Source: Caldithrix abyssi DSM 13497
GTDB taxonomy: Bacteria; Calditrichota; Calditrichia; Calditrichales; Calditrichaceae
Direction of reading: 5' to 3'
Length of the DNA stretch: 64,000 nt
NCBI RefSeq assembly: GCF_001886815.1
Contig: NZ_CP018099.1
Span: 4,710,501 to 4,774,500, forward strand
In this document: positions 20,053-28,677 of the stretch, piece by piece
Layout of the letters: each line of letters opens with the position of its first letter
Position numbering within the stretch: position 1 is the stretch's first letter
Program-made: the position numbers and the translations under genes
Notes under the pieces: generated by a model
What the model was told of the DNA's origin: nothing
The model's input: only the letters and a program-made list of their open reading frames with translations
The model's database searches: none

Positions 20053-23000
20053 ATGGTTAACAAAATTATCCTTGGCATTTTTATTTGTGTTATTTCCGTT
20101 CTGGGCAATATTCAGCAAAAGCTGATTGAAGCCAGAGCGGCAGAACGTAACCATGATTATTCGGCAGCGATAAAACTGTACCAACAAGTCCTGATGGCTG
20201 AGTTTACTTCCAAAGAGGCATGGCAGGGGCTGCTGCGCACCGAAGCGGCAAAAGAAGTTCAGGCTTTAAAGCTTCCCCGGGACAGCGATACCTGGAGCCA
20301 CCAGGCCGGCAAAATATATTTAAAATACTATCAATATCCTACTGCCATTCACTTTTTGCAAAAAGCCTATCAGACGCAAAAAAAGCAAAATTACCTCTTT
20401 GACCTGGCCACCGCTTATTTAAAAGCGGGCTTTAACAACAAATGTATTTCCATTCTAAACGCCGAGGCCCAAAAGCATTCCAATGACGGGCTGTACTTAA
20501 AAGGGATTGCCGAATTTTACTTTAAAAACCGCCTTTATGGGCAGGCGGCAAAATTTTTTGAGCAAAGCCTGAAATTTAAGATTCAAAGCGACACGCTCTA
20601 CACGCAATACGCCCGTTGCCTGGAAAACCTCGGTCGTTTAGAAGAGGCTGAAAAACTTTTCGAAAAAGGCGTTAAACAATTCAAAACGCCCTTTATTTAC
20701 ACCGAATTCACGCGTTTTTTTATTCGCGCCAATCAATTTGAAAAAGCGCTAAAAATTGCAGAAAAATCCGAAGATGAATTTAACACCGTTGAAGTCTATC
20801 TAAAATTGAAAGGGCGTCCGGCGGTCATTGAATACTTTCGTCAACTTCAAAAAAAGAATCCGTACCATCTGGCTTATTACATCTGGATTGCAGAGCTTTA
20901 CTCACTGGAACAACAATACCAACAGGCCGAAAAGGTTTTAAAAGAAGGACTGATCCGCTTTCCCACCAACGAGCAGATGTGGGAATCGCTGGCAAAAGTT
21001 TATACAAACCTTGAAGAATTTGACCGCGCGCTGGATGTTTACAAAAAACGATTGCCGCAAAATACGCCCAATCTCAAGCAACAACTTCGGTTGTACTTGC
21101 TAAAAAAAGACCTGAAAAACGCTCAAAAGATCATCAATCAATTAAAAACGCAAAAGGCTCTGTCTGACCAGGAACTGGCCGGAATGTATGAAAAGAACTT
21201 TCCTGTGAAGGCCGAAGAAATTTACAGCGCGCTTTTAAAGACCACTCCGCAAGATGCTCGCCTTTTAAATCAGTATTTCAACTTTCTAAAAAAACAGAGA
21301 AATTATGACCGGGCCATTCATCTCGTATTGCAACATGCCCCCCAAAATGTCTCCTGGCTGATCCAGAACGGTTCGGCCATTTTACGCTTTTTGTGTTTAA
21401 ACGGTTATGGCGAAAAGGCGACGGAATTGGCTCACCAATTTATTCTGGCGCAGGAAAACTGGAAGAACATTCTTTCTCCACAGGTTTATCAGCCTTATTT
21501 AACGACGCTGCGCTGGACCGGCGCCAACCGTGAATACTTTGTGTTTCTTGAAATACTGCTGGAATTTGATCCGGACAATCATGCACTCTATCAGGAAATC
21601 GCTCAGTTGTACGAACAAAATGAAAACTGGAAAGAAGCGCTGTATTACTACAGAAAACTATTAAAAGAAAATCCGCACGATGTTTTTTTGCGGTACAAAA
21701 TGGCGACCATGTACGCCAAAATGGATCAACGACAAAGAGGATTGCAGGTTCTGGGCAAAAGCATTTCCACTCAAAAGCGCAGCCCGCTCGAACTCTACTA
21801 TTTATCGCGCTTTTATTATGAGCAGGGCTACTTCGAACAGGCCTTAGCCATTATTAATCAAATAGTGGGCAAAAAGATTTCGCCTGAGGCGTATTTTGAT
21901 GATCCTTATGGCTTTGAGCTTAAAACGGAAATTCTGGAAGCTTCCGGTAAATTAACCGATGCCTTTAACACTCTCGAACAATATGTGCGCGAATTTCCAA
22001 ATGAATTGCAATCTCATCAACTGCTGGCGGAATACCTGTACCGACACGGCGATTTTATGCGCGCTGAGGCCGAGTACAAAAAAATATTCCAATTGAATCC
22101 GCAAAACTTCACCGTGCTGCGCCGCATCGCCCTGTGTATGGTCTATCAAAACAAAGTAAAAGAAGCATACCACTTTCTGGAAGAGCAAATTAAAGCCTCG
22201 CCTTACATTAACGAAGAAGATATTGACTATTACAAAGGTTACGTGGCGCACATCATGAACGATTATCCCACCGCTCTGCGCTACTATCAAACCGCCCTGC
22301 AAAAAAACGCGAATAACTCCCATATTCTGCTGTTACAGGGCATTTTGTACGAAGAAACCGAAGAACTTGAAGCCGCGCTCCGTGTTTTTAAAACGGCCCT
22401 GGCCAGGGACTCCGCCTTTACAAGGTACGACAAGTTAGGCGACATCTACCGTCACATGCATGATTACAAAAAAGCGCTTAATTATTACGCGCTTTACCGA
22501 AATGTCCGTCCGAATGATCTGTCTGTATTTCCCTCCATTGCCATTTGTTACAAAGGCCTGGGCAATGAAGAAGAAATTTACAATTTGATCGGCATGCTGC
22601 AGAGTTTTCCTGAATCGCCAGAGCGCGCCCTGCAAGAAGCACGGCTTTACGAGCTGCTGGAAAACTTTGTCGTTGCCGAAAGAAATTATTTGCGATCCAT
22701 CTTACTGCAGTCTGGCGTTACGCCCGCCTTACGTTCCCTGGCGCAATTGTACATCAAAATGGGTAACTTTCTGGAAGCCGAAGTCTGGACGCGAAAATAC
22801 TTTGAAGCAGCCCCCCAAAGCCCCTACAATATGGATTTAATGGGCGCCTATTACATGGAATCGCAGGACTTTATCTCCGCCGAGTACTGGTTCCGCAAAA
22901 TAAACAACGATATTCCCTGGTACTACTTTGCCCGGAACAATCTGGGGCTGGTTTATTTGCATAAAGGCGACTATCAGAAAGCCAGAGAAATATTGAAAGA

Positions 23001-24834
23001 ACTGAGCGCCACTCACCCCGAGCATTCGGCTTTTCGCCGTAACCTGGCATTATGCGAAATTCGTTTAAACAATCTGTCCGATGCCAACAGTATTTATTCA
23101 AACTTAATCAAAGAGCGGCCTTACAACCTCAAGAACTACATCGAGTACGTCCGCTTTATGCTGTTTTTTAAAAACGATGTGCGCCGAGCCCGCGATGTTT
23201 TAAACAGGGCTTTAAAAATGGCGCCGCACAACAAAGAGCTAAAGGCCCTGGATTATTTACTGATGGCTTACGAAGGCAAGGCCAAGCAGGCCATTAGCGG
23301 ATTGCTTGACTTACAAACCTATTACAACGACAACAACCGCCATGCCCAGGGAACCCTTGCCCTTTACCTGTCTCTGGCCTACGAGAAAAACAAAGATATT
23401 AAAACCAGAAATGAATACCTGGCCATAGCCCAGAAAATGGACCCCAATGATTTTTGGATCGATGAAATTCATGCCAGGAAAGCCATCCCCTTAAAAGTGG
23501 TAGCCATTAGCGAAAAGCCGGAAGTCATTGCCGCCCAGCAAAAGCAGGGATTGATGGATACCTTTCAGAAATATGAAGATCGTTTTACCAGTCTGGAATT
23601 GAATGATCGTTTTAGCCTGTCGCAGGTTTCAACAGAAAAGGTTAAGGAAAAAATTGATAAACAATCCGAGTTTGACGTGAGCATTGCGCCGGACAATTTA
23701 CGCCATACAGCCGGTCTTAAGCTCATTCAGGCGCCTAAAATCATCATTACCGCGCCTAAAGACGGGCACCACACGCGCGCTTCTTCCATCAACGTCGAAG
23801 GCTTTATCACCCAGGGCAAAAAACCTGTGGCCTTCGATTTAAACGGTAAAAAAATTACGGAATATGGCAAGAATGTAAAAATCCAAAAAATGCCGGATCC
23901 TGAAACCTATCCCAACGCCATCCCCTTCCGCGTAACCGATTTTCCCCTCGTCCCTGGCGCCAACTTTTTGACCGTACACGCTAAGTTTAAAGACAACTAC
24001 GAAACACAAAGCACCATCAGAGTGGGCAGAATTGCCAAATTGTTGTACGCCTTTGAAACCATTCCCAAAAGAGCAAAAGGCGTCAATCGCTGGGCGTTGA
24101 TTGTCTCTAACGAAGATTACGAAGACCCACGAATCCAGGACCTGCCCAACGCCCAATATGATGTGGATGCGTTTAAGAGGTTTTTAACCGCATCCAACGG
24201 GTTAGACATTCCGGAAAGCAACATCCTGACACTGTCCCTTTCTACGGGTATTCAACCAACGCGATCGGCGGTAATTGACGGCATCAAAACTATTGCCCGC
24301 TACGTGGAGCCTCAGGACGAGGTGATTATCTTTTACGTGGGTAACGCACTTATTATTAACAACGGTTCCGGTTCGCAACAGAGCTTTACCTTTCTAATGC
24401 AGGACTCTCAGATAGACAAGCTGTACAGCACGGGCATCAATATGGAGTTTTTCCATCTCATTTGTAAATCCATTCCGGCTTACAAAGTCAGTTGTTTTCT
24501 GGAGGCCAATCTTTTTGAGAATAATTCCAACCGTCTGGAAAAATTGACCGCATTGAGTCCCATCAAATTCGATTTTGCGGACAACAACAAAGAGCCTTAC
24601 GTAAACATCCTTATTATGGGCAACGGCCTGACGACGACGCCATCGAATGCCGCAAAACCCAGCCGATTTACTTCTAATTTGATTAAGGCTTTGAAAGGAG
24701 CCGCCGATAGTAACAAAGACAAAAAAATCACTTTTGATGAGATTTTTAATTATTTGAAAGCGCGAATTCGCAACCATGAAATTGTTTTGGGGAACTTTCA
24801 ACACAAAATGACCTTGTTTGGTTTACAAAATTAG
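20053..24834 (+). CDS. Giant periplasmic TPR protein with C-terminal catalytically dead caspase-like domain
   Basis: A 1593-residue protein. A hydrophobic N-terminus (residues 1-19) looks like a signal peptide. Residues about 20-1180 are a long array of TPR-type helical repeats (for example YKKALNYYALYRNVRPNDL). Residues about 1225-1335 form an Ig-like beta domain (IIITAPKDGHHTRASSINVEG). Residues about 1346-1590 match the caspase/metacaspase (C14) fold: RWALIVSNEDYED, LPNAQYDVDAFKRFL, then DEVIIFYVGNALI. Where active proteins have GHG and DACHSG, this one has GNA (about 1429) and EANLFE (about 1483), so His and Cys are both missing. An EF-hand-like DSNKDKKITFDE loop lies near the end. It leads an apparent operon with TolQ- and TolR-like genes. 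Confidence 0.88.
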   Translation: MVNKIILGIFICVISVLGNIQQKLIEARAAERNHDYSAAIKLYQQVLMAEFTSKEAWQGLLRTEAAKEVQALKLPRDSDTWSHQAGKIYLKYYQYPTAIHFLQKAYQTQKKQNYLFDLATAYLKAGFNNKCISILNAEAQKHSNDGLYLKGIAEFYFKNRLYGQAAKFFEQSLKFKIQSDTLYTQYARCLENLGRLEEAEKLFEKGVKQFKTPFIYTEFTRFFIRANQFEKALKIAEKSEDEFNTVEVYLKLKGRPAVIEYFRQLQKKNPYHLAYYIWIAELYSLEQQYQQAEKVLKEGLIRFPTNEQMWESLAKVYTNLEEFDRALDVYKKRLPQNTPNLKQQLRLYLLKKDLKNAQKIINQLKTQKALSDQELAGMYEKNFPVKAEEIYSALLKTTPQDARLLNQYFNFLKKQRNYDRAIHLVLQHAPQNVSWLIQNGSAILRFLCLNGYGEKATELAHQFILAQENWKNILSPQVYQPYLTTLRWTGANREYFVFLEILLEFDPDNHALYQEIAQLYEQNENWKEALYYYRKLLKENPHDVFLRYKMATMYAKMDQRQRGLQVLGKSISTQKRSPLELYYLSRFYYEQGYFEQALAIINQIVGKKISPEAYFDDPYGFELKTEILEASGKLTDAFNTLEQYVREFPNELQSHQLLAEYLYRHGDFMRAEAEYKKIFQLNPQNFTVLRRIALCMVYQNKVKEAYHFLEEQIKASPYINEEDIDYYKGYVAHIMNDYPTALRYYQTALQKNANNSHILLLQGILYEETEELEAALRVFKTALARDSAFTRYDKLGDIYRHMHDYKKALNYYALYRNVRPNDLSVFPSIAICYKGLGNEEEIYNLIGMLQSFPESPERALQEARLYELLENFVVAERNYLRSILLQSGVTPALRSLAQLYIKMGNFLEAEVWTRKYFEAAPQSPYNMDLMGAYYMESQDFISAEYWFRKINNDIPWYYFARNNLGLVYLHKGDYQKAREILKELSATHPEHSAFRRNLALCEIRLNNLSDANSIYSNLIKERPYNLKNYIEYVRFMLFFKNDVRRARDVLNRALKMAPHNKELKALDYLLMAYEGKAKQAISGLLDLQTYYNDNNRHAQGTLALYLSLAYEKNKDIKTRNEYLAIAQKMDPNDFWIDEIHARKAIPLKVVAISEKPEVIAAQQKQGLMDTFQKYEDRFTSLELNDRFSLSQVSTEKVKEKIDKQSEFDVSIAPDNLRHTAGLKLIQAPKIIITAPKDGHHTRASSINVEGFITQGKKPVAFDLNGKKITEYGKNVKIQKMPDPETYPNAIPFRVTDFPLVPGANFLTVHAKFKDNYETQSTIRVGRIAKLLYAFETIPKRAKGVNRWALIVSNEDYEDPRIQDLPNAQYDVDAFKRFLTASNGLDIPESNILTLSLSTGIQPTRSAVIDGIKTIARYVEPQDEVIIFYVGNALIINNGSGSQQSFTFLMQDSQIDKLYSTGINMEFFHLICKSIPAYKVSCFLEANLFENNSNRLEKLTALSPIKFDFADNNKEPYVNILIMGNGLTTTPSNAAKPSRFTSNLIKALKGAADSNKDKKITFDEIFNYLKARIRNHEIVLGNFQHKMTLFGLQN

Positions 24835-24878
24835 CTTTACAGCACAGCGCAGCCATTACTAAAATGGGAGGCATTATA

Positions 24879-26246
24879 ATGGAAAAGCAAAATCCTGCAG
24901 ACCCCGTTTCAACGAAAAGGAAAAGCGCGCTTCGGTCGCTCTCTTTAACCCGCAGCTTGCTTTTAGGCGCCGGGGTGACGCTGGTTGTTTTAATAGGCGT
25001 GTATTACCTTGGTCAGATCAAAGGTTTTGAAAATATACGCGCGCTTTTTTTGGAACGCGGATTCATTCAATACCTGATTACCTTTTTAGGCGCCTGGTCG
25101 TTTTCCATTTCCTTTTTAAAACAGCGAGAAATAAACTGGGAAAAACATAAAGCCGCTGAGACCAAAAAGCATTTTCACTGGACGGTATCGGAAAATGTGG
25201 AGGAAGCGTTAAAAAATATTATCAAAGCGGTGCCGGGCGTTGAACGCACGCGCCTCTTCCAACGCATCCAAAGGGCTTTTAGCGCCTTCCAGAGCGGCAT
25301 GGAAAGCAACGATTTAAGAGACGCCTTACTGGAACAAAGCGACCGGGATTCTGAAAACGTTGAACTCAGCTACACGATTTTACGTGTGCTGGTGGCAGTC
25401 ATCCCTCTTTTAGGTTTTACGGGAACCGTGCTGGGCATCAGTAACGCGGTCGGTAATTTCTCCTCGGTCATTGAAACGGCCCGCGAACTGGAACAGGTGA
25501 CAAGCCATCTGGGCGGCGTGACCACCGGCCTGGCCGTGGCCTTCGACACCACGCTGCTGAGTTTATTGATTACCGTGCCTTTAATGATGTACACCTCCGC
25601 TTTAAAAAAACGCGAAGACGAGCTTTTGCTGGAAATCGACGAGTTCTGCGAATACGAAATTCTTGATCCCATCTTTCAGGAAAAAAGCAAAGAAAAACAT
25701 TTAGTCGATATCATTGAACACCTGGATCAAAAAGTTCTGGAAGACCATGTTGCAGCTCTGACCAAAACAGTCAATGTTTTAAGCGATTTAAACGTAAACA
25801 TTCAAAAACATCAAACCTTATTTGCCGATTCGCTCCAGAAGTACAGCGAAGTTAGTAACGCATTGGTTCAAATCAGCAAAAACCAGGAATTCTGGGCCGA
25901 TCAAATCATGTCGCTGGAAAAAGTAAACAACCACCTGGAAGCCATTTTCTCCTCGCTGAAGGCCCTGCCCGAAGGCATGAAATCCGTTTTACTCAAAACG
26001 CAGGAAAGTTATTACCAGGGCCTTATTAGCGAAATGAACAAAATAATCCAGACCTTTGAAGCCAAAGACAGCAAGACGAGCGAAAAATTAAACGCTTACC
26101 TGACCTACGAAGAAGAGATGCAAAAATCGTTACAACAGACCATGGAAAAAATCCATACCGGCCTGGCAGAGTTAAAGCCGATTTTAGAAAACCTGAACAA
26201 ACCCGTGACCATTACCCTTTCGCATCAATCGACAATCAACAAATAA
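24879..26246 (+). CDS. MotA/TolQ/ExbB-family channel subunit with long C-terminal coiled coil
   Basis: A 455-residue inner-membrane protein. The ATG at 24879 is chosen because GGGAGG lies 7 nt upstream; the ATG at 24864 would precede that site. Four hydrophobic segments (about residues 27-46, 62-80, 167-190 and 216-241) resemble MotA topology. The MotA_ExbB core is clear in VIPLLGFTGTVLGISNAV and TTGLAVAFDTTLLSLLITVP, with D223 inside the last helix. Residues 245-455 are a largely alpha-helical, coiled-coil-rich tail expected in the cytoplasm, much longer than in TolQ. Homologues form proton- or sodium-driven motors. It lies 44 bp after the TPR gene and 16 bp before two TolR-like genes. Confidence 0.9.
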   Translation: MEKQNPADPVSTKRKSALRSLSLTRSLLLGAGVTLVVLIGVYYLGQIKGFENIRALFLERGFIQYLITFLGAWSFSISFLKQREINWEKHKAAETKKHFHWTVSENVEEALKNIIKAVPGVERTRLFQRIQRAFSAFQSGMESNDLRDALLEQSDRDSENVELSYTILRVLVAVIPLLGFTGTVLGISNAVGNFSSVIETARELEQVTSHLGGVTTGLAVAFDTTLLSLLITVPLMMYTSALKKREDELLLEIDEFCEYEILDPIFQEKSKEKHLVDIIEHLDQKVLEDHVAALTKTVNVLSDLNVNIQKHQTLFADSLQKYSEVSNALVQISKNQEFWADQIMSLEKVNNHLEAIFSSLKALPEGMKSVLLKTQESYYQGLISEMNKIIQTFEAKDSKTSEKLNAYLTYEEEMQKSLQQTMEKIHTGLAELKPILENLNKPVTITLSHQSTINK

Positions 26247-26262
26247 GAACTGAGAAAGAACT

Positions 26263-26736
26263 ATGGCCAGGAAACGTTCCGAAGGTTTTTTACCGACATT
26301 ATTTCCTTTTTTAAGCATCTTAACCTGTACGGCAGGCGTGCTTTCTTTTATTATTATTTCCATTAGCGTGGTTTCTCTGTTGGCCCCGAGCATCATGGTC
26401 ACGTCAAGAGATACTACCACAAAAAACCCAAAAAAACCGACCTATGTGGAATGCCATCCGAATTATCTGCTATTAACTCAAACGCAGGATCAAATTCCTT
26501 ATGTTCAGATCGACCAACCGCGTTCGCCCTTTCGCCTTTTTCTGCAACAGATAAAGCAACGGGCAGACAGTACGTACATTGTATTCGCCATTTATCCAGA
26601 AGGCGAACGGACGTTCAGAAGGGCGTACCGCTTAATTAGCGAATTAAACAAACAATTAGCCTTACAGGGCGCTAAAATCGACATCGGATACGAACCATTT
26701 AACAAAACGTGGCATTTACAAGTTGGCAGGGATTAA
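26263..26736 (+). CDS. TolR/ExbD-like protein A (lacks the membrane Asp)
   Basis: A 157-residue protein with a short cytoplasmic N-terminus, one transmembrane helix (about residues 12-40) and a periplasmic domain of about 115 residues ending in an alpha/beta TolR-like pattern (TYIVFAIYPEGERTFRRAYRLISELNKQ). In ExbD/TolR the helix begins with a conserved proton-carrying Asp; here the aligned segment is FPFLSILTCTAGVL, with Ser in that place. The gene sits directly between the TolQ-like gene and the second TolR-like gene. Family assignment rests on size, topology and context more than on strong motifs. Confidence 0.78.
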   Translation: MARKRSEGFLPTLFPFLSILTCTAGVLSFIIISISVVSLLAPSIMVTSRDTTTKNPKKPTYVECHPNYLLLTQTQDQIPYVQIDQPRSPFRLFLQQIKQRADSTYIVFAIYPEGERTFRRAYRLISELNKQLALQGAKIDIGYEPFNKTWHLQVGRD

Positions 26737-26739
26737 CCG

Positions 26740-27273
26740 ATGAGACGGCGAGGTAAAAAATCTACTGGCTCATTTAGTTTTAATATCGATTCTTTAATGG
26801 ACATTGTAACCAATATTGTGGGGATGCTGGTCATCATTGGCATTATCAGCAGCCTTTCATTACGCTCTAAAGATTTTGTATTCGAAACGCCGATGGTTTA
26901 TGAAACGGAAAAAGCGAGCATCATTTTCGAATGCAGAAATAACCAGCTATTCCCTGTTTCGCAAAATGCCGAAACGTTTTACTACCGCACCTATGCCGCC
27001 TATCAGGAGGTGTTAATCCCCGTGCCTGACGCGCAGGGCGAGAGTATTGCCGAAATCAGCCAGCCCGGTTCCATATTTTACGAAATGTTGAATCAAACCG
27101 ATCCCCAAAAACAATTTTTTTACTTTATTGTGCGCTCCGATAGCTACGACATTTTCAGAGAAGCGCGAAAACTGGCCTGGGAAAAAAATATTGAAGTGGG
27201 CTGGACGCCCAAACCGAAAGATGAAATCATTCTGTTTTCGCCTTACGGCGAAAGAACAAAAGTGGTCGATTAA
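26740..27273 (+). CDS. TolR/ExbD-like protein B (keeps the membrane Asp)
   Basis: A 177-residue single-pass protein. The N-terminal segment FNIDSLMDIVTNIVGMLVII places Asp21 at the start of the transmembrane helix, the position of the essential Asp in ExbD and TolR. The periplasmic part contains FFYFIVRSDSYDIFREARKLAWEKN, a pattern seen in TolR-like domains where the chain reports a residue-by-residue strand and helix. It starts 3 bp after protein A ends. The pair is expected to form a heterodimer in the pore of the TolQ-like pentamer, with only this subunit able to carry ions through the Asp. Confidence 0.8.
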   Translation: MRRRGKKSTGSFSFNIDSLMDIVTNIVGMLVIIGIISSLSLRSKDFVFETPMVYETEKASIIFECRNNQLFPVSQNAETFYYRTYAAYQEVLIPVPDAQGESIAEISQPGSIFYEMLNQTDPQKQFFYFIVRSDSYDIFREARKLAWEKNIEVGWTPKPKDEIILFSPYGERTKVVD

Positions 27274-27276
27274 TTC

Positions 27277-28677
27277 ATGGTAGATTTCAAGATGAGCGGA
27301 ATGCAAAAAAGTCTTATTTTGTTGTTATTTCTTTTCATTTTTGTGGGATGTAAAAAACAGGAAGCCACGCCTTCCGACGCTTCCGGCCAGGCCATCTCCT
27401 TTATCAATGTGGTTCACAAAAAAGGGGTGGTAGATATTCTACCGCTTGACAACCATCGACTGCTTTCCATCGGTAGAGACAGCCTGGTCATTTTATGGCA
27501 AACCGATTCGGCCAGAGCCATGGCTTTTAAGCGCTTACGCCGAACGCCGGTGGCGCTTGCCAGATCCGTGAACGATCCGGCTTCGTTCTGGCTCTTTTTA
27601 GAAAAAGGTGTTATCTTACAATTGTCCATACCGGAGCTTGCGGTAAAAAATCAGATTCAGACCGTATTTAATAACTTTGCCAGGCCGCTGCTTTCCCTTC
27701 CCCAAAAGGTATTTTACGCCAGGGCCGATTTAAATCTGGTTTTATTCGATCCGCTTAAAGCCTCTGTCAAAATCCAGCCTTTTGCTTTAAATTTTAAGGA
27801 CGCTATTTCTGTGGCCAGAACCCAACCGCTTCTGGTCCGCTTTCGAGATACTCAGGCCCGGTTATTCGATTTGCGTACGTTTAAAGGACTCTCTTCTGTC
27901 AATCTGCCTCGTTTCAATTCCAGAACAAAAGCGCCGCGCTTGATAACCTTTGTTGATGATCATTTTTGTCTGGCGGCCCACGCTGAAAACCTGTGGTTAA
28001 TCGACTGGAACCGGCGGCAGGCGCGCATTCTACCGCGCAATCATCTGGCGCCCATCACGGCTCTGGCCGCTTCTAATTCATTAAAGATGTTTTTCAGCGG
28101 CTCCATGGATAAGTCGATTAAAGTGTGGGACATGGATTCACAAGAATTAAAGGCTTCGCTTTACGGCCATTTTTTCAATATTAACCGGTTGGTAGTCATC
28201 GATTCCACCCAAAGCCTGATCTCCGCTTCGGAAGACGGCACCATTCTCATTTATGATTTACATAATTTTGAGATGGTAAAACGACTGGGCGCCATGGAAG
28301 TCGCCTTAAAATCGCCCTGGCAACTGACCATCACCTCGGTTTATCCGGCGCGCTCTTTTAAGGTAGGAACTGACGAATACAACGTGTCGGAACGTGGAAG
28401 CCGACTTTTAAAAGTAAACGCCGAAATAAAAAATATCTCGCCGGCCGACGCCATATTTTTTTCCTCCAACTTTTTTATCATTGATTCGTCCAATGCCAGA
28501 ACGCCCTGCGTGGGGCTTGAAAATTACGTGGCTCTTGGGCCCGATGCCTATTTCAAAAGGCTTATTTCCCCCGGTAAATCCATTAAAGGCACCTTTATCT
28601 TTGTGATTAAACCACCTTATCAAAAATACCGACTCACCTACGAAACCCTGCCGCCCGTTTCATTGCAAGACTTCTGA
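27277..28677 (+). CDS. WD40-like beta-propeller lipoprotein with DUF4352-like C-terminal domain
   Basis: A 466-residue protein (shorter if the in-frame ATGs at 27292 or 27301 are used; none has a strong ribosome-binding site). The hydrophobic segment LLLFLFIFVGCKKQ ends in a lipobox, with Cys at residue 25 from the first ATG or 17 from the third. Repeats such as ITALAASNSLKMFFSGSMDK, KVWDMDSQE and LISASEDGTILIYDL are WD40 blades. The last 120 residues (LKVNAEIKNISPADAIFF, then NFFIIDSSNAR) resemble the Ig-like DUF4352/TRF2-like fold. It starts 3 bp after the TolR-like gene and closes the operon; the likely role is an envelope-anchored scaffold. Confidence 0.85.
   Translation: MVDFKMSGMQKSLILLLFLFIFVGCKKQEATPSDASGQAISFINVVHKKGVVDILPLDNHRLLSIGRDSLVILWQTDSARAMAFKRLRRTPVALARSVNDPASFWLFLEKGVILQLSIPELAVKNQIQTVFNNFARPLLSLPQKVFYARADLNLVLFDPLKASVKIQPFALNFKDAISVARTQPLLVRFRDTQARLFDLRTFKGLSSVNLPRFNSRTKAPRLITFVDDHFCLAAHAENLWLIDWNRRQARILPRNHLAPITALAASNSLKMFFSGSMDKSIKVWDMDSQELKASLYGHFFNINRLVVIDSTQSLISASEDGTILIYDLHNFEMVKRLGAMEVALKSPWQLTITSVYPARSFKVGTDEYNVSERGSRLLKVNAEIKNISPADAIFFSSNFFIIDSSNARTPCVGLENYVALGPDAYFKRLISPGKSIKGTFIFVIKPPYQKYRLTYETLPPVSLQDF

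Follow-up and report, generated by a model that had tools for sequence, protein, structure and literature searches.

Pseudo-orthocaspases, in which the His-Cys dyad of the C14/p20 domain is substituted, are a known kind of protein; 862 have been described, and the bacterial forms include the cyanobacterial YS and YN clades (PMC6426788). Among bacterial metacaspases the dyad is intact in 84%, and WD40 and TPR are among the commonest partner domains (PMC3501461). Caspases go unmentioned in the genome paper of Caldithrix abyssi (PMC5317091). Our literature search found no pseudo-caspase described together with an ExbB/ExbD-type motor.

Few of the hundreds of bacterial pseudo-caspases have a suggested partner. 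The operon described here, from a 64,000-nucleotide stretch (the window) of the C. abyssi genome (complete, one contig, 4.98 Mb), supplies a set of candidates, and the role of a caspase fold that does not cut therefore becomes testable.

Results

The gene at positions 20053–24834 of the window (+ strand, as for all window features below) is a single uninterrupted frame with its stop at 24834. Its 1593-residue product, predicted to be exported, consists of a signal sequence, a TPR array, a conserved linker, an Ig-like domain and a C-terminal pseudo-caspase. Hydropathy showed one hydrophobic stretch in the whole protein, at residues 1–25 (20053–20127). This is a putative N-terminal export signal, as also suggested by an AxA-type signal in the orthologue L011. 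The TPR array (about residues 30–1137, ~1100 residues; 20140–23463) matched Pfam TPR families in many stretches and is 50–74% identical to its orthologues. The linker (KVVAISEKPEVIAAQQKQGLMDTFQKYEDRFTSLE...; 23494–23706) is among the best-conserved parts of the protein, with 72–84% identity in the alignment. The Ig-like β-sandwich preceding the C14 domain (23740–24030; 76–78% identity) was modelled as all-β with pLDDT mostly 80–95. The pseudo-caspase (248 residues; 24088–24831), a C14 fold that lacks the His-Cys dyad, was assigned from Pfam, alignment and an AlphaFold model.

The fold of this last domain was recognised in two ways. Pfam Peptidase_C14 matched domain residues 1–87 at 24.9 bits (E 1.9e-5), above its curated cut-off of 21.4 bits, and the AlphaFold model of the Ig-like and C14 domains (mean pLDDT 81) has a caspase fold. 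Foldseek and VIA-align placed the model with MALT1, metacaspases and caspases. The top caspase-fold matches had Z of about 20 spanning 195–220 residues (MALT1, 20.6 over 202 residues; metacaspase 9, 20.5 over 220), and zymogen caspase-8 gave a Z of 18.8. The model was built from 21 aligned rows, the four orthologues and 17 other C14 rows, and because 16 of those 17 are intact it borrows from intact C14 domains; the Pfam match is independent of those rows. When solved structures were searched by sequence, the four orthologues by themselves returned chance and EF-hand matches only; metacaspases appeared when the wider alignment was used. The original prediction had placed a caspase-like C14 domain at 24088–24834, to be compared as a model with metacaspases, and had put this pseudo-protease at the end of a long TPR protein. 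The Pfam match and the Z scores bear out the first claim, and the TPR and C14 matches within one 1593-residue frame bear out the second.

The catalytic positions were read from an alignment of 35 C14 domains: that of the window, three orthologues from the same genus and 31 further domains of the phylum Calditrichota. In the His column the window has N (GNA; codon 24343–24345, N86 of the domain, residue 1431) and the orthologues have N, Q and N. At the Cys column all four have Asn (EAN in the window; codon 24508–24510, N141 of the domain, residue 1486), and the two residues preceding it are EA, EA, DA and DA across the four species. In these same two columns, 30 of the 31 non-orthologue domains have both H and C. 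The four domains thus lack the GHG His and the DAC/DCC Cys of an active C14 peptidase, and, with a p20-type domain and substituted dyad residues, they fall with the bacterial pseudo-orthocaspases. A conserved acidic specificity pocket has been reported in cyanobacterial pseudo-forms; of its Asp positions, the early one, at D25 of the window's domain, reads D, D, N and N.

GNA and EAN are the readings given in the original prediction, and the 35-domain alignment anchors them. It had also asked whether these letters are fixed among orthologues: the loss of the dyad is, since His and Cys are both replaced in each of the three orthologues, but the exact letters vary, and only the Asn at the Cys position is constant. 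As the loss is common to four species, local decay and sequencing error were ruled out.

The sole non-orthologue exception in the alignment has Y/S at the dyad. This pseudo-caspase (L005 of genome G036, 1489–2241) resembles the cyanobacterial YS type, a common kind of pseudo-orthocaspase, and continues into a long low-complexity stretch and then a further C-terminal domain.

In a tree of the 35 rows the four dead domains formed one clade with 100/100 support and a long stem. Among the four species synonymous substitutions are saturated or nearly so and dN for the domain is 0.26–0.45, which therefore indicates purifying selection; dN/dS was not computable for most pairs because of this saturation. 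From these sequence comparisons, the protease chemistry appears to have been lost once, in the ancestor of the genus, as an old event that was followed by purifying selection. The EF-hand-like loop that had been noted near the end of the domain (DSNKDKKITFDE, residues 1552–1563; 24706–24741) is present, and its pattern, D-x-N-x-D-x-x-I-T-x-x-E, including the ligand positions, is kept in all four orthologues. The loop also occurs in several intact C14 relatives.

The genes that follow the TPR-C14 gene, as far as a WD40 gene, are separated by gaps of 3–29 bases in the window. The first (24864–26246) encodes a MotA/TolQ/ExbB-type proton-channel subunit of 460 residues (PF01618, E 1.6e-13), with three hydrophobic segments by hydropathy and a long C-terminal tail. 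It matched TolQ structures at E 0.004 and is 67–81% identical to its orthologues. Two small, single-pass ExbD-like proteins come next. D1 (157 residues; 26263–26736) has, in the alignment, a Ser (FPFLSIL) replacing the transmembrane Asp of ExbD/TolR, and D2 (177 residues; 26740–27273) keeps the Asp (NIDSLMDIVTN). This residue, D21 of D2, is invariant among the orthologues, with Ser at its D1 counterpart; by its motif, it is the putative equivalent of ExbD Asp25. Foldseek with the AlphaFold model of D2 ranked TolR first (E 7e-3), and the four best VIA-align matches were the periplasmic domains of ExbD, ExbD, TolR and ExbD, with a modest Z (4.5–5.6). The D2 profile was matched by orthologues of D1 with E values of 1e-4 to 3e-4, a weak but recognisable kinship. 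Pfam ExbD matched neither D1 nor D2 at E up to 1. Because D2 has the fold matches and the Asp, and D1 has the Ser and is a weak relative of D2, we read the two as a putative unlike pair of ExbD-type subunits. Last in the series is a 466-residue WD40 + DUF4352 lipoprotein (27277–28677; lipobox FVGC; Pfam WD40, 2e-13; DUF4352, 4e-8), and a CBM9/DUF5916 gene comes ~100 bases after it.

The order TPR-C14, ExbB, D1, D2, WD40 is kept in the orthologues as far as the contigs reach. In two species (L010 and L012) it can be followed on a single contig from within the TPR gene, and in the fourth species the same order is split across two contigs (L011 and L032). The main context of the pseudo-caspase, absent from the original prediction, is a co-conserved proton-motor operon headed by its gene; the operon looks like one for a proton-driven motor of the cell envelope. 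Zorya (ZorAB) was also considered, but a PADLOC-DB search with E up to 0.1 contained no Zor match. Zorya and other named defence systems were rejected, since the PADLOC matches were all generic ones to caspase, TPR and coiled-coil families.

A profile of the linker and Ig-like domain found 4 of 385 genomes, all of this genus, and the same four carry a close relative of the motor. Neither this profile nor, at orthologue level, the D2 profile found an orthologue outside the genus among the 385. More distant D2 relatives are present in a few other lineages, with an ExbB-like gene beside them in L029, L098 and L099. Other accessory proteins lie near motor relatives, including a HEAT-repeat lipoprotein (L025) and a 613-residue protein. 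On the contig stretches examined, several from short contigs, no C14 gene was found near the distant motor relatives. For this reason we regard the pseudo-caspase as an accessory and not a core part: the motor is more widely distributed than the pseudo-caspase, and the latter seems to have been added in this genus.

Adjacent ExbD-like pairs, the first without the Asp and the second with it, were seen at 26263–27273 of the window and in L025, L028, L029, L096 and L097. Their motifs are FPFLS, FPFLT or FPFM[SA] in the first member and DSLxD or FSFLD in the second, and there was no Pfam ExbD match where tested. In L099 both ExbD-like copies have the Asp.

Discussion

The reading that we favour, with a probability of roughly 60%, is that the pseudo-caspase protein is a periplasmic adaptor that lost its protease chemistry once and couples a proton-driven motor to a partner in the envelope. 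The caspase domain has then probably been reused to bind a partner or to link forces, and is not an enzyme. We infer the periplasmic site and the adaptor role from gene order and co-distribution. The TPR-Ig-pseudo-caspase protein would be exported to the periplasm and serve there as a motor adaptor, with its TPR array, conserved linker and Ig-like domain docking onto the motor or the WD40 lipoprotein. The pseudo-caspase, which we infer, in line with the original prediction, to be a binding or sensing module, would hold an envelope partner (a peptide, a strand or a protein) with no cleavage, possibly in a calcium-dependent manner. Movement of the motor could then change or pull the envelope complex to which the pseudo-caspase is bound.

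We also put forward, tentatively and as a doubtful proposal, that the pseudo-caspase might be the load-bearing or gating head of an asymmetric proton motor with two unlike B subunits and one Asp, its caspase fold now acting as a mechanical or calcium-sensing coupler. Judged by their sequences, the unlike pairs of ExbD-like subunits seen in several lineages apparently represent an asymmetric family of envelope motors that has not been described before, and the locus points to such a motor.

Could the dead caspase instead be a binding module that works outside the motor, with neighbours that merely share its promoter? What links the TPR protein to the motor is operon membership and co-distribution, and motor relatives elsewhere are paired with the HEAT-repeat lipoprotein or the 613-residue protein, with no C14 nearby. 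However, the gene order is maintained in all four species, the linker-Ig region and the close motor relative always occur together and nowhere else among the 385 genomes, and an intact relative (L007) has WD40-like repeats, Ig and C14 within one chain. We therefore think this explanation unlikely.

Rather more unlikely is relaxed decay, whereby the domain, its protease activity gone, persists as a tail with no role. The C14 domain is indeed the least conserved region of the C-terminal half, with 48–67% identity to its orthologues overall (67% for L010, from G002 of the same genus) compared to 72–84% for the linker and Ig-like domain. Within it, identity is 80, 62 and 60% up to the strand of the old His, and falls to 48, 36 and 35% after the old Cys (residues 1485–1540). 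This is the least conserved and fastest-evolving stretch of the domain, so that a conserved ligand groove beside the dead Cys is not evident, a point against the adaptor reading. Nevertheless, the domain is uninterrupted and of full length in all four species, whose synonymous distance is close to saturation, and dN is far lower than dS. In the four-way alignment 90 columns are invariant, among them TIARYVEPQDEV and the ligands of the EF-hand.

The domain might also act as the dead regulator of an active caspase, in the style of c-FLIP and caspase-8, by pairing with a catalytically intact C14 partner within the cell. Two of the four species, G002 and G003, each encode one such intact protein (L038 and L039), but these do not group with each other in the tree, and in the complete C. 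abyssi genome, as in that of G001 (95% complete), the dead C14 domain is the only one found. The search used a C14 profile specific to the phylum, which recovered the dead domains at E 1.2e-24 and 1.8e-30. As it found no intact C14 gene in the C. abyssi genome, the explanation largely fails there; overall we consider it improbable. Least probable by our estimate is that the domain retains enzymatic activity through a displaced nucleophile or other chemistry: C136, five residues ahead of the old Cys position, is invariant among the four orthologues, but no His is, two of the domains (L011 and L012) contain no His at all, which excludes a relocated Cys-His dyad, and Asn or Gln occupies each of the two ancestral sites.

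The periplasmic adaptor that we prefer shares with the described pseudo-orthocaspases (PMC6426788) a substituted His-Cys dyad in a C14/p20 domain that is conserved as a clade. The change of Cys to Asn is known from the YN clade, and TPR-bearing forms are known for the FS type. Those proteins come mainly from Alphaproteobacteria and Cyanobacteria, and Calditrichota are not named in the main text of that study. The domains of the C. abyssi genus differ in the change of His to Asn or Gln, in their C-terminal position behind the very long TPR/Ig part of an exported protein, and in a gene that heads a motor operon.

Closer at hand, the Ig-C14 and WD40-Ig-C14 proteins of the phylum (L009 and L007) likewise have an Ig-like stretch directly before the C14 domain, and L007 also has an EF-hand loop after it, as well as WD40-like repeats. 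Unlike the C. abyssi protein, both have kept the His and Cys and are without the long TPR array. No ExbB gene was found within the 10 kb examined near L007. In L007 (49–2253) the WD40-like repeats, Ig and intact C14 are fused; the same domains are divided between two genes in the C. abyssi operon.

With TolQ-TolR and ExbB-ExbD the operon has in common an ExbB-type channel and a single-pass subunit with a transmembrane Asp; the periplasmic fold of this subunit may also be ExbD/TolR-like. In contrast to them it has two different ExbD-like subunits, neither of which matches Pfam ExbD and one of which is without the Asp. The operon showed no TonB or TolA. In gene make-up it recalls the AglRQS-Glt gliding machinery of Myxococcus (PMC3169522), which likewise has one TolQ-like and two TolR-like genes in succession, together with exported TPR proteins. 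In that system Pfam ExbD is matched by AglQ and AglS, the Glt genes lie apart and no caspase fold is listed.
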